NCBI RefSeq assembly: GCF_001424485.1 | Contig: NZ_LMQC01000001.1 | Location: forward strand, 253,755 to 317,754 | Length of the DNA: 64,000 nt | Direction of reading: 5' to 3' | Source: Modestobacter sp. Leaf380 | Lineage (GTDB): Bacteria > Actinomycetota > Actinomycetes > Mycobacteriales > Geodermatophilaceae | Shown here: positions 4,377 to 8,914 of the stretch, piece after piece | Layout of the letters: every line of letters begins with the position of its first letter | Numbering within the stretch: the first letter of the stretch is position 1 | Notes under the pieces: model-generated | The model's database searches: none | The model's input: only the letters and a program-made list of their open reading frames with translations | What the model was told of the DNA's origin: nothing | Made by a program: the position numbers and the translations under genes

Positions 4377-5867
4377 TCAGCGGCGGACCCGCCCGGCGCC
4401 GGGCAGGGTCAGCACCGCGACGGTCCCGTGCCCGGACTCCGGCGCGCTGATCGCCAGGGAGCCGTGCAGCTCGCTGGTCACCAGCGTCCGGACGATCTGC
4501 AGGCCCAGCCCCTTGCTCGCCGCGACGTCGAAGCCCGGCGGCAGCCCCTGGCCGTCGTCGGTGATCCGGACCAGCAGGTCGTGGCCGTCCCGCTCGGCCG
4601 CCAGCTCGATCGTGCCCGGACGCCCGTCGGGGAAGGCGTGCTCGACGGCGTTGTGCAGCAGCTCGGTGACCGCCATGACCAGCGGGGTCGCCGCGGCCGC
4701 CGGCAACTCGCCGAAGGCACCCACCCGCTGGATCCGCGCCGAGGGCCCCACCGACGCGACGTCGCCCAGCATCGGCAGCACCTGGCCCAGCACGTCGTCC
4801 ACGTCCACCACGTCGTCCCGGCTGCCGGCCAGGGTGTCGTGCACGACGGCGATGGAGGCCACCCGGCGGACCGACTCCAGCAGCGCCTCCCGCGCGGCCG
4901 GCTCGGACACCCGCCGGGCCTGCAGCCGCAGCAGCGCGGCCACCGTCTGCAGGTTGTTCTTCACCCGGTGGTGGATCTCCCGGATGGTGGCGTCCTTGGT
5001 CATCAGCGCCCGGTCCCGCCGCCGCACGTCGGTGACGTCGCGGACCAGCACCAGCGCCCCGTGCTCGCCACCGGGGGCCTGCAGCGGCAGCGCCCGCACG
5101 AGCATGGTGGCGGCCTCGCCCTCGACGTCCATCGGGTCGGGGAAGCGACCGGCGACCGCTGCGGTGATGCTGGCCGCCACGGCCTCCCCGGCCACCCGGT
5201 CGGTGGCCGCGTGCCGGGTGAGCTCGGCCAGCTGGACCCCGACGACGTCACCGGTGAGACCCATCCGCCGGTAGGCCGACAGGGCGTTCGGGCTGGCGTA
5301 GACCGCACGCCCGGCACCGTCCAGCCGAACCAGCCCGTCGCCGACCCGGGGGCTCATCTCGGCGTCCTCCAGCATCCGCGGGGGGAACGTGCCGGCCGAG
5401 ACCATCTGGCACAGCTCCGCGGCGATGTCGAGGTAGGTCAGCTCCAGCGGGGACGGCGAACGGGTCGCCGACAGCCGGGTGTCCCGGGCCAGCACGGCCA
5501 CCACCGCACCCTCGTGCCGCACCGGCAGCACCTCACGGCGGCGTGGGGCGGAGCCCGTGCCGTCGGGCTCCTCGGTGACCGTCTCGCCCCCGGCGTGCAC
5601 CCGGGCGAAGGACGCCGCGTCCGCACCCTCGACCTCGACGCCGATGAGGTCCTCGGGCTGCGAGGTGGGCGCGGTCAGCGGGCGGACCTGGGCCACGCAC
5701 CACCAGGGGCCGGTGGGCAGCGGGACCCACAGCGTGAGGTCGGCGAAGGACAGGTCGGCCAGCAGCTGCCAGTCGGCCACCAGCCGGCGGGCGTGGTCGA
5801 CCTGGGAGGGACTGACCGAGGAGCCGCGGGACAGGCGGTCGGAGAGGCTGCTGGGGGTGCTGGTCAT
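4377..5867 (-). CDS. pdtaS: Sensor histidine kinase PdtaS
   Basis: A 496-residue cytosolic histidine kinase of the HisKA_2/HWE-like class. An N-terminal GAF-type region (about 1-150) is followed by a PAS-type region (about 160-280), then REIHHRVKNNLQ with the phosphorylated histidine near residue 300, the N box ELLHNAVEHAF and the G boxes DDGQGLPPGFD and GLGLQIVRTL. No membrane segment is present. In mycobacteria PdtaS phosphorylates PdtaR, an ANTAR-domain regulator that acts on RNA by antitermination; PdtaR is not in this window, but an unrelated ANTAR protein is at 45717. It follows the biotinyl-domain gene after 55 bases and may be co-transcribed with it. Confidence 0.9.
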   Translation of the reverse strand: MTSTPSSLSDRLSRGSSVSPSQVDHARRLVADWQLLADLSFADLTLWVPLPTGPWWCVAQVRPLTAPTSQPEDLIGVEVEGADAASFARVHAGGETVTEEPDGTGSAPRRREVLPVRHEGAVVAVLARDTRLSATRSPSPLELTYLDIAAELCQMVSAGTFPPRMLEDAEMSPRVGDGLVRLDGAGRAVYASPNALSAYRRMGLTGDVVGVQLAELTRHAATDRVAGEAVAASITAAVAGRFPDPMDVEGEAATMLVRALPLQAPGGEHGALVLVRDVTDVRRRDRALMTKDATIREIHHRVKNNLQTVAALLRLQARRVSEPAAREALLESVRRVASIAVVHDTLAGSRDDVVDVDDVLGQVLPMLGDVASVGPSARIQRVGAFGELPAAAATPLVMAVTELLHNAVEHAFPDGRPGTIELAAERDGHDLLVRITDDGQGLPPGFDVAASKGLGLQIVRTLVTSELHGSLAISAPESGHGTVAVLTLPGAGRVRR

Positions 5868-5922
5868 GGTGGACCGAGCCTAGGACGGCGCCGTCCCGAC
5901 CTCCCCCGGCGACCCCGCGGCG

Positions 5923-6144
5923 TCAGGCCTGGACGGTGGCGATGAGGTCGCCCTCCTGGAGGACCTCGCCCTCGACGACGTGCAGCTCGGTGACGGTGCC
6001 GGCCTTCTCGGTCAGCACCGGGATCTCCATCTTCATCGACTCGAGGATGACCAGCGTGTCACCGGCGGCCACCTCGGCGCCCGGGGCCACCAGCACCTTC
6101 CAGACGCTGGAGACCATCTCGGCGTGGATCTCCTCGACCGCCAC
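5923..6144 (-). CDS. Stand-alone biotinyl/lipoyl-domain protein (TB7.3-like)
   Basis: A 73-residue protein that is only a biotin attachment domain. The motif ESMKME places the modified lysine at K38; the flanking pattern matches mycobacterial TB7.3 (Rv3221c from memory). Biotinylated single domains carry carboxyl groups between a biotin carboxylase and a carboxyltransferase, but no partner enzyme is assigned. The GTG start at 6144 is preceded by GAGGAG with about six bases spacing; the longer open frame upstream lacks a better site. Upstream on the same strand lies a degenerate biotin-carboxylase-like gene, downstream pdtaS. Confidence 0.88.
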   Translation of the reverse strand: MAVEEIHAEMVSSVWKVLVAPGAEVAAGDTLVILESMKMEIPVLTEKAGTVTELHVVEGEVLQEGDLIATVQA

Positions 6145-6252
6145 CGGTCCTCCTCGCTGCAGGGACTCCCACCCGTCGCTGCTGCGCCGGTGTGCGCACA
6201 TCCAACCACCCGGCGGGCCACCTCCCCGCCGTCCGCCGGGTGGACGTGCCGG

Positions 6253-7269
6253 TCAGCCGTCGGCGAGCCGGTGCAGCACCGAGCAGACCGCCGCCCCGTC
6301 GTGCGGCACACCGGTCTCGGGCAGACCGGTGAGCACCTCGGCGACCAGCCGCGCCGCGGTGCCGGTGTCCGGGCCCGCCGCGCTGACCGTGGCCAGCAGC
6401 GCGTCGTACCAGCCGTCCAGCCGGTCCCCCCGGTCGTACCCGGTGACGGCGACGACGTCGGAGCCCGGGCCGGCCGGGCGGTCCGGCAGCCGGCCGGTGA
6501 CCCGGCCCGCGGTGCCCGGGGGCAGCGTGGAGCGCAGCTGCGCCGCCACGGCCGGGCGCAGCGGGGCGTCGGGCACCGGGCGCAGCCGCCCTGCGGCGCT
6601 GCGCAGGGCGAGGTCCACCGCGTCCACCCCGTGCGCCCGCTCCAGCACCGCCACGTCCAGGCTGAACCCGGCGGCCACCTCCGCCAACGCCCCCTCCGGG
6701 TCGATGCCGACGGTCACCAGTCCGCGCCAGCCCAGCTCGGGCAGCCGCTGGGCCGCGGCGGGCAGCGCCATCGCCTCCCCCGTCGTCCAGGACACCCGGG
6801 CGGTGCCGGCCTCCCGGTCCCGGCGCACCGGGGTCACGTGCGCCAAGCCGTCGGCGGTGACCACCGCCAGGAAGCCCAGCTCGCTGGCCGGCTCGACGCC
6901 GTCACCACCGAGCCGCTCCAGCACCGCCGGGTCCGGGCCGACCCAGGTCAGCCCCACCGACCGCACCGCGGCGGCCAGCTCGACGTTGCCGGCCAGTGCC
7001 GGGGGCACCGGCAGGACCGCCGACACCCCGCTGCGCCGGGCGGCCTCGACCAGCCGGGGCACCGACAGGTAGGACTCCGCGGCCGGCGCCGGGCCCAGCC
7101 ACACCGCGTCGTCGGCCAGCCGCACGTGCCGGGCGTGCGGCTCGGTCGCCGAGTGCACCGCCACCGTCTTCACCCCGCGTGCGGCGCACGCCGCGATGAC
7201 CGCGCAGGCCATCGGGCCCCGTCCGGCCACCAGCACGCTGTCGATCCCCGTACCGCCGGTGTCGGCCAC
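6253..7269 (-). CDS. Degenerate biotin-carboxylase-like protein
   Basis: A 338-residue protein; true biotin carboxylases are about 450. Residues 10-105 match the biotin carboxylase N domain strongly (VLVAGRGPMACAVIAACAARG, then HVRLADDAVWLGPAPAAESYL, then LTWVGP). The ATP-grasp domain is cut down: the MGDK segment, glycine-rich loop and EK(Y) strand are absent. What remains aligns loosely to the end of ATP-grasp, but the catalytic EMNTR/QVEH block reads EVAAGFSLDVAVLE. The last 90 residues resemble the C domain (GDRLDGWYDALLATV corresponds to the YYDS(M/L)IAKL strand). It is therefore probably catalytically dead. It is followed after 108 bases by a lone biotinyl domain. Start GTG 7269 has only a weak ribosome site. 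Confidence 0.65.
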   Translation of the reverse strand: MADTGGTGIDSVLVAGRGPMACAVIAACAARGVKTVAVHSATEPHARHVRLADDAVWLGPAPAAESYLSVPRLVEAARRSGVSAVLPVPPALAGNVELAAAVRSVGLTWVGPDPAVLERLGGDGVEPASELGFLAVVTADGLAHVTPVRRDREAGTARVSWTTGEAMALPAAAQRLPELGWRGLVTVGIDPEGALAEVAAGFSLDVAVLERAHGVDAVDLALRSAAGRLRPVPDAPLRPAVAAQLRSTLPPGTAGRVTGRLPDRPAGPGSDVVAVTGYDRGDRLDGWYDALLATVSAAGPDTGTAARLVAEVLTGLPETGVPHDGAAVCSVLHRLADG

Positions 7270-7499: not shown

Positions 7500-7574
7500 A
7501 TGTCCAAGCGTGGACGCAAGCGGCGCGCCCGCAAGAAGAGCGGCGCCAACCACGGCAAGCGCCCCAACGCCTGA
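7500..7574 (+). CDS. 50S ribosomal protein bL37
   Basis: A 24-codon gene. The product begins MSKRGRKRRARKK and ends ANHGKRPNA, matching the tiny actinobacterial large-subunit protein bL37 first seen in mycobacterial ribosome structures. More than a third of the residues are Lys or Arg, as expected for an rRNA-binding peptide. The ATG follows a strong ribosome site (AGGAGG, about 6 bases away). A perfect 16-base-pair hairpin lies 77 bases after the stop. It lies between the biotin-carboxylase-like gene (divergent) and rshA-sigH (convergent). Confidence 0.88.
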   Translation: MSKRGRKRRARKKSGANHGKRPNA

Positions 7575-7724: not shown

Positions 7725-8054
7725 TCAGCGTTCGGTGGTGTGCTCCACCGTGACGCGCTCGACGGTGACCGACGTGCCGTCCTCCTCGAAGGAGACGTTG
7801 GTCAGCTGCATCTTGATCCGGTCCTTGAGGCCCAGCGGGGTGGGGTCTCCCCCGCAGCGCCGACGGACCAGGGCCTTGAACTCCTGCTCGATGCCGAACT
7901 CCCGCAGGCAGGGCGAGCAGTCCTCGAGGTGCTCGGCGATGACCGCGCGGCGCGCGTCCCCGGTCTCGTGGTCCAGGAACTCGAAGACGTGGGAGAGCAC
8001 GTCGTCGCAGCTGTTGATCTCCCCGTCGTGCTCGGGGTGGGCGGTCTCGCTCAT
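7725..8054 (-). CDS. rshA: Zinc-binding anti-sigma factor RshA/RsrA
   Basis: A 109-residue ZAS-family anti-sigma factor. H42, C46 and C49 (HLEDCSPC) plus C16 give the H-x3-C-x2-C zinc site whose cysteines form disulfides on thiol stress and release the sigma factor. Length and arrangement match RshA of mycobacteria and RsrA of Streptomyces. Its ATG overlaps the sigma factor stop (ATGA, 8051-8054), so the pair is made in balance. The acidic tail after residue 80 is more variable. A strong hairpin follows the gene. Confidence 0.93.
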
Positions 8055-8761
8055 CGCGCGCTCCCCTCCTCGGGGGCCCCGGCGCGGGCGAACCCGCGCT
8101 CCCGGGCGTAGTCGGCGAGCAGCTTCTGCAGCCCGCGGCGGCCGCGGTGCAGGCGGGACATCACCGTGCCGATGGGCGTGCCCATGATCTCGGCGATCTC
8201 CTTGTAGGCGAAGCCCTCGACGTCGGCGAGGTACACCGCCAGCCGGAAGTCCTCCGGCAGCTGCTGCAGGGCGTCCTTGATGTCGGAGTCGGGCAGGTGG
8301 TCCAGCGCCTCGATCTCGGCCGACCGCAGCCCGGTGGAGCTGTGCTGCTCGGCGGCGAACAGCTGCCAGTCCTGCACCTGGTCGGTGGGGTACTGCTGCG
8401 GCTGCCGCTGCTTCTTGCGGTAGTTGTTGATGTAGGTGTTCGTCAGGATCCGGTAGAGCCAGGCCTTGAGGTTCGTGCCCTCGGCGAACTGGTGGAACGC
8501 GGAGTAGGCCTTGACGAAGGTCTCCTGCACCAGGTCCTCGGCGTCGGCCGGGTTGCGGGTCATCCGCAGGGCCGCCGGGTACAGCTGGTCCAGGAAGGGC
8601 AGCGCGTCGCGCTCGAAGCGGGCGTCGCGCTGCGCACGGGTCTCGGCCTGCTCGCTGCGGCTGCCGTCGGCCCGGGCCTCGGGGGTCTCGGTCACGACAG
8701 CGGGGGCACCGGCAGCTGCCGTCCCCGGTCCCGTCGTCTCGTCCGTGGTCTCGTCGGGCAC
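8051..8761 (-). CDS. sigH: ECF sigma factor SigH/SigR (main isoform)
   Basis: The 236-residue redox sigma factor that reads thiol-stress promoters (GGAAT-N18-GTT class). Region 2 contains [20 protein letters not shown] and region 4 contains [18 protein letters not shown]; the central segment [24 protein letters not shown] is almost identical to mycobacterial SigH, so only parts are quoted here. The start GTG at 8761 has GAGAGGA about 7 bases upstream. The reading frame is open for a further 51 codons to a GTG at 8914, described separately as a long isoform. Released from RshA by oxidation, it should control thioredoxin, mycothiol and mycoredoxin genes. Confidence 0.92.
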
Positions 8762-8914
8762 CGACCGTCCTCTCTGCGGCGCCCGCAGACGGGACACCAC
8801 GTCGGTCGATCCTAGCCGGGCGGCCACCGGGCGGCCGGGCGGACGACGGGTCACGACGACGTCCGGGGACGTCGTCGACCGGCGGGCCCGGGTCGGTGCG
8901 GAGGAGCTGGTCAC
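8762..8914 (-). other. In-frame N-terminal extension giving a long SigH isoform
   Basis: Fifty-one extra codons from GTG 8914 run in frame into sigH. The extension is Arg/Ser/Thr/Pro-rich and unlike any sigma region. Streptomyces SigR has a stress-made, Clp-degraded long form (SigR') with a similar extension of about 55 residues. Here the upstream GTG falls where a transcript from the candidate SigH promoter (8921-8950) would begin, so the long form could be leaderless and made only in stress. Confidence 0.5.

Follow-up and report, generated by a model that had tools for sequence, protein, structure and literature searches.

The closest described system is the biotin carboxylase (BC; AccC or the N-terminal part of AccA3, with the domains PF00289-PF02786-PF02785). 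The protein considered here, a gutted biotin carboxylase (pBC), shares with it the N domain, the predicted fold and, judging from alignments and a tree, its descent; its C domain has diverged. In contrast to BC, however, it lacks the ATP-binding half of the ATP-grasp domain, its catalytic block is overwritten, and it is about 110 residues shorter. The second related system is the TB7.3-type carrier. The biotinyl protein beside pBC belongs to the same family and possesses the motif ESMKME, but here the neighbouring BC appears to be dead, whereas at many loci viewed elsewhere there is none. We know of no settled role for TB7.3-type carriers. A further parallel is offered by the BADC proteins of plants, a catalytically incompetent, carrier-like copy of a carboxylase subunit that carries no biotin and has been retained. 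Like pBC, BADC is a kept, incompetent copy of a carboxylase subunit; unlike pBC, it resembles the carrier and not BC, and no homology between them is claimed. Rv3221c is termed a putative BCCP in one paper (PMC3048393). A dead BC beside TB7.3 was not found described in the literature searched, which for the most part did not extend to subscription papers.

A stretch of 64,000 nucleotides from Modestobacter sp. Leaf380 was analysed (the window), and all coordinates of the locus refer to it. The closest named relatives of the locus belong to Klenkia (78–81% identity). It comprises the following features:

4377..5867, minus strand: pdtaS sensor kinase (Pfam), next after the TB7.3-type carrier with a gap of 55 nt
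5923..6144, minus strand: free-standing biotinyl carrier of the TB7.3 type, 73 aa from GTG 6144 (92 aa from ATG 6201)
6253..7269, minus strand: pBC, 338-aa open frame with GTG start (Pfam/NCBIfam, AlphaFold2, Foldseek)
6256..6564, minus strand: diverged BC C-terminal domain of pBC, residues ~236–338 (sub-threshold PF02785, alignment, Foldseek)
6565..6918, minus strand: residual, remodelled C-terminal part of the ATP-grasp domain of pBC, residues ~118–235, borders approximate (alignments, AlphaFold2 secondary structure)
6919..7245, minus strand: BC N-terminal (pre-ATP-grasp) domain of pBC, residues 9–117 (Pfam PF00289, E 4.5e-25)
7500..7574, plus strand: bL37-like ORF of 24 aa, divergent from pBC, between pBC and rsrA
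7725..8054, minus strand: rsrA-type anti-sigma factor (NCBIfam TIGR03988)
8051..8914, minus strand: sigH/sigR-type sigma factor (NCBIfam TIGR02947)

The minus strand thus reads sigH, rsrA, pBC, biotinyl protein and pdtaS, and pBC, TB7.3 and pdtaS are spaced tightly enough in the window that they may be co-transcribed; in many relatives, the gap between TB7.3 and pdtaS amounts to several hundred bases. The basic ORF on the plus strand (MSKRGRKRRARKKSGANHGKRPNA) is taken by us to encode a ribosomal protein like bL37. Of 59 named loci scanned, all but L077 have a match to its pattern on the strand opposite to pBC and ahead of it (58 of 59), and it sits behind rsrA wherever rsrA is in view. An earlier interpretation of the letters alone (the sequence-only reading) had placed the pair in a locus with pdtaS and sigH. 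Both genes were confirmed, pdtaS by Pfam and sigH by NCBIfam, but the link of sigH to pBC is weak, as the oppositely oriented bL37-like ORF stands between rsrA and pBC and no SigH-type promoter pattern was found near pBC. Control of pBC by SigH was rejected: the pattern GGAA[TC]-N16-20-GTT was not found between positions 5901 and 9200 of the window. Among seven other loci it was found in four, always before sigH, and not in the other three, which are named Klenkia loci.

The coordinates given by the sequence-only reading proved correct. It had assigned to the 338-residue protein recognisable N and C domains of BC. For the N domain this was borne out by the PF00289 match, whereas the C domain has diverged: PF02785 matched residues 268–325 below threshold (E 0.083; 13.4 bits, cut-off 32.4), although the model of the whole protein matches BC chains in Foldseek. 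The ATP-grasp model was absent from pBC at E <= 1 in the Pfam scan, and a PF02786 search of the own genome (4.76 Mb in 25 contigs as searched) yielded eight matches at E <= 0.001, none of them at pBC. No Pfam or NCBIfam model names the whole protein at the thresholds used; the best NCBIfam match reached 92.4 bits (cut-off 626.5).

A residue map of pBC was made against the intact BC of locus L188. Where the intact BC has the segments with its two ATP-site lysines, its GGGG loop and its EVQV strand, pBC shows gaps; ERDCSVQRRHQK is replaced, and FLEMNTRLQVEHPVTE stands opposite LAEVAAGFSLDVAVLE. The active-site block EMNTRLQVEH reads EVAAGFSLDV (EVAAG and SLDV), in the N domain HPGYGFLAE has become LPVPPALAG (HPGYG to LPVPP), and the C domain has WYDALLAT where the intact BC has YYDPLMAK. 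Arginine R246 of ELRVYAEDP and glutamate E197 of EMN are kept, the former being invariant and the latter nearly invariant among 56 aligned pBC sequences. The ATP-site lysines, EMNTR and QVEH are taken here as ATP-binding or catalytic residues of BC. The reported loss of most of the ATP-grasp domain therefore holds for the glycine loop and the lysines, which are deleted, but not for EMNTR/QVEH, which the block alignment shows to be overwritten rather than absent, with a degenerate C-terminal half of the domain remaining at about residues 130–235. As read from its residues, pBC is a dead BC whose active-site residues are gone, and its ancestry rather than its active site makes it a BC; this agrees with the earlier claim of a catalytically dead protein, given the absent ATP-site residues and the missing PF02786 match.

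The 56 aligned sequences, of which the others are 39–82% identical to that of the window, share 54 invariant columns, so that the signal is far above chance; the N domain accounts for 32 of these columns, the rebuilt middle for 13 and the C domain for 9.

The fold of pBC is predicted to be that of BC. The AlphaFold2 model (56 sequences; pLDDT 91, pTM 0.92) has as its top PDB match in Foldseek AccA3 of M. tuberculosis (5mlk_B, E 7.7e-24, TMq 0.81, 26% identity), and all 50 PDB matches listed are chains of biotin-dependent carboxylases. The structure prediction proposed earlier thus gave a BC fold. By sequence, a complete ATP-grasp site is not expected, since its residues are missing from pBC whatever the fold. 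For L221, a shorter relative in genus g8 (295 aa submitted), the model is likewise a BC scaffold (pLDDT 82.7, pTM 0.83) with 5mlk_B again as top match; two intact BCs were among the 15 rows of the underlying alignment and possibly aided the fold.

The adjoining 73-residue protein proved to be a biotinyl domain as described, with intact ESMKME and a match to NCBIfam NF004547 above cut-off (111.4 vs 75 bits); NF004547/PRK05889 is presumed to represent the TB7.3 family. Its biotinyl match is the sole one in the own genome to fall in a short frame, of 109 aa between stops. The BC-type ATP-grasp ORFs of this genome (614, 681, 1239 and 1335 aa) each contain a biotinyl-domain match of their own (4/4), and thus no dedicated active BC was found for TB7.3 here. 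The other PF02786 matches comprise an 1113-aa ORF with two copies, which presumably is carB, and two weak ones. In four loci of other genomes (L151, L153, L154, L155), TB7.3 homologues have DSMKME in place of ESMKME, and the gap between rsrA and TB7.3 is 1.4–2.8 kb.

Group f1 of the genome search was taken as the family of the window. The gutted BC is present in 36 of 36 family genomes, the own genome included. The main form is whole in 27 and split over two contigs in one (G007); four genomes of genus g5 have a form about 41% identical, and in four of g8/g10 the profile search gave N-domain matches only, yet a shorter gutted BC adjoins TB7.3. The pBC match of G012 holds one TGA, and its open frame in L233 spans profile positions 3–328. 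TB7.3 lies directly downstream of pBC on the same strand in all 63 named loci with enough flank (two of 65 excluded), with 24–147 nt between the matched segments. The same holds for 29 of 29 loci of a second set, which includes the window's own and appears to overlap with the first (one excluded). The biotinylation motif is retained in all of these 63 + 29 loci, and rsrA lies upstream of pBC in 56/56 named and 28/28 second-set loci with flank. Twenty further loci of the same order comprised 11 with a gutted BC, one with an intact BC (L222) and eight with none. Eight of the 11 belong to f1 and two to f12, where about 0.8 kb separates the gutted BC from TB7.3; the last, a weaker one from f10 (L235), has neither a sigH nor an rsrA match in the range viewed. 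After trimming, the gutted rows used for the tree described below were 274 to 383 aa long across lineages.

Selection was assessed by dN/dS from Nei-Gojobori counts. Among eight genus-mates (the window, six genomes of the same genus and one Klenkia MAG; 28 pairs), pBC showed ratios of 0.09–0.34. The values for rsrA (0.12–0.45) and pdtaS (0.07–0.40) in the same set overlap this range, so that pBC is constrained about like its neighbours. For the gutted BC, 0.20–0.25 was obtained in clade g5 (6 pairs) and 0.32–0.37 in clade g8 (3 pairs); two pairs of intact BCs beside TB7.3 gave 0.24 and 0.16. In a frame control with 10 Klenkia pairs, the sense frame gave 0.17–0.34, one antisense frame 0.24–0.43 and the other four frames 1.7–3.5. 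The low-ratio antisense frame contains 1–3 stop positions per pair, the sense frame none, and its low ratio is presumably due to a codon-position pattern shared with the sense frame. These observations show that pBC is under purifying selection. A lineage-specific, decaying pseudogene, which the sequence-only reading had named as a possible objection, is rejected on the basis of these ratios (0.09–0.37) together with the conservation in 36/36 family genomes.

Of 148 genomes of the class, 90 gave TB7.3 relatives (E <= 1e-12). For 58 of these 90, the flanks were viewed to about 4 kb in either direction, or to the contig end where that was nearer; within this range, 21 loci show an intact BC and 37 show no BC. 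GGGG.GM and EMN.R occur in 21/21 of these intact BCs, while exact RRHQK was missed in four and exact QVEHP[VI]TE in one. Both sigH and rsrA are in view at four of the 21 loci (L137, L139, L161, L162) and pdtaS at five; the sigH/rsrA context is out of view for most, and a shared position is shown for some of these BCs only. In L188 and L189 (same order, genus g20), sigH, rsrA, intact BC and TB7.3 occur together, and their N domains were the top-scoring ones among the intact BCs compared. In L222 (4001–5680, minus strand), where sigH and rsrA are also in view, a BC with EMNAR and GGGGIGL is joined to TB7.3 in a single 560-aa open frame. Twenty more loci contained an intact BC in two cases (L269, and L270, which is cut by the contig edge), no BC in 17 and an altered one in L287. 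There (4823–6178, minus strand) the BC beside TB7.3 keeps EMNTR and has GRGPRGTK at the site of the glycine loop; this is possibly a separate start of decay. A very degenerate BC between rsrA and TB7.3 was searched for with a mixed profile (hmmsearch) in those BC-less loci where both genes are in view on one strand, and nothing convincing was obtained; the best new match (E 0.0026) falls in the frame of L158 that holds TB7.3 itself.

A frame of the crotonase (enoyl-CoA hydratase) family lies between the intact BC and TB7.3 in L130, L131, L141, L146, L156 and L161. These frames were judged by eye from the conserved tail, and the copy of L146 was tested; in L235, L269 and L270, a crotonase beside the BC was detected by BLAST. 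Such a neighbour points to a CoA ester as the substrate of the ancestral BC/TB7.3 pair.

In a tree of 41 rows, the BCs near TB7.3, full and gutted, are split from three other BCs of the own genome (100/99), and the 15 gutted rows lie on one side of a branch (91/98). The latter grouping is less than secure, since long branches lead to the gutted rows, and no special affinity of these rows to L188/L189 emerges from the tree. By these comparisons pBC shares its descent with the BCs found beside TB7.3, and a single gutting event is likely. The likely origin from a complete BC beside TB7.3 is the new point here.

One genome of the family departs from the common order. In G323 (genus g4), pBC is stop-free over 339 codons and ends 754 nt before pdtaS; this stretch is 317 nt shorter than that of L039, at the expected site of TB7.3. 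The search for TB7.3 in this genome gave five weak matches only, the best (4.4e-10) in a 609-aa frame. The dN/dS of its pBC is 0.15–0.24 against four relatives. TB7.3 therefore does not seem strictly needed for the selected function, and G323 argues against a TB7.3-dependent function of pBC, except if the loss happened very recently or is an artefact of the assembly. In the region in question (L300, ~1610–2360), TB7.3 is cleanly missing between pBC, itself intact, and pdtaS; if the assembly is right, this is a natural deletion strain.

As a mechanism we propose that the ancestor of pBC was a complete BC working with the adjacent TB7.3-type carrier, and that its ATP- and bicarbonate-using part has since been lost by deletion or overwriting in this family and in some of its neighbours, while the scaffold of N and C domains would have been retained under selection. 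Since the ATP part is lost and the scaffold selected, pBC most likely acts without catalysis. The scaffold may hold or present biotinylated TB7.3; alternatively, pBC may pair with an active carboxylase and recruit or restrain it. That pBC is such a non-catalytic binding subunit, for TB7.3 or for an active carboxylase, and descends from a BC that served TB7.3, is the explanation we prefer, and we give it about an even chance. The constant gene neighbourhood and the single frame of L222 favour TB7.3 as the partner. The co-occurrence of the pair that the sequence-only reading had wished to see examined holds at 63/63 named pBC loci with flank, but not in G323, nor at the 37 of 58 TB7.3 loci elsewhere without a BC; G323 and these many BC-less loci speak against mutual dependence and a strict two-protein machine. 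The sequence-only reading is partly supported; its further proposals were that the pair could sense biotinylation or bring the free carrier domain to another carboxylase.

The same loss of TB7.3 in G323 with pBC retained would fit a different function, in which pBC no longer serves TB7.3 and instead regulates the assembly or activity of a housekeeping AccA-type carboxylase, the gene order being merely inherited. The top fold match is an AccA3 chain, and the four BC-type genes with fused biotinyl domains are possible partners. The adjacency to TB7.3, however, is kept at every family locus with flank, and we consider this regulator a conceivable but rather unlikely explanation, with roughly one chance in four. 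Less probable still is that pBC has been re-purposed for a new ligand or reaction in a remodelled central groove. W161, GWRG (180–183), G201 and R246, invariant among the 56 sequences, and the nearly invariant E197 lie in or near the rebuilt middle, but much of this middle is missing from the shorter g8/g10 forms, and it contains no known motif. A slowly decaying remnant without function might account for the variable lengths of the gutted forms and for the many TB7.3 loci with no BC in view; it is already disfavoured and very improbable in view of the low dN/dS in all clades tested, the invariant columns and the confidently predicted fold. Finally, pBC might be a chance open frame of a GC-rich genome, as antisense frames of 378 and 441 aa overlap it and one antisense ratio is little above that of the sense frame; this is already refuted by the homology to BC, by the stop-free sense frame with the lowest ratio in 10 pairs, and by the stops or high ratios of the other frames.

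An extension of the preferred binding function would be a biotin-dependent complex of pBC with biotinylated TB7.3 which has no enzymatic activity, is read by PdtaS and senses the state of biotin or acyl-CoA carboxylation, with the orphan TB7.3 elsewhere as the end point of the same change. We regard this as a long shot; if true, a former pair of metabolic enzymes would have turned into a sensor.

For a carrier as frequent in the class as TB7.3, these results propose an origin as the carrier of a two-gene BC system, with a crotonase gene in between in several loci. The TB7.3 loci form a natural series in which the carboxylase is full, gutted or absent. It is probable that pBC now works by binding and not by catalysis, and that it once served TB7.3. 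The results suggest that the TB7.3 carrier and, in this family, the hollow BC have a task for which catalysis by this BC is dispensable.
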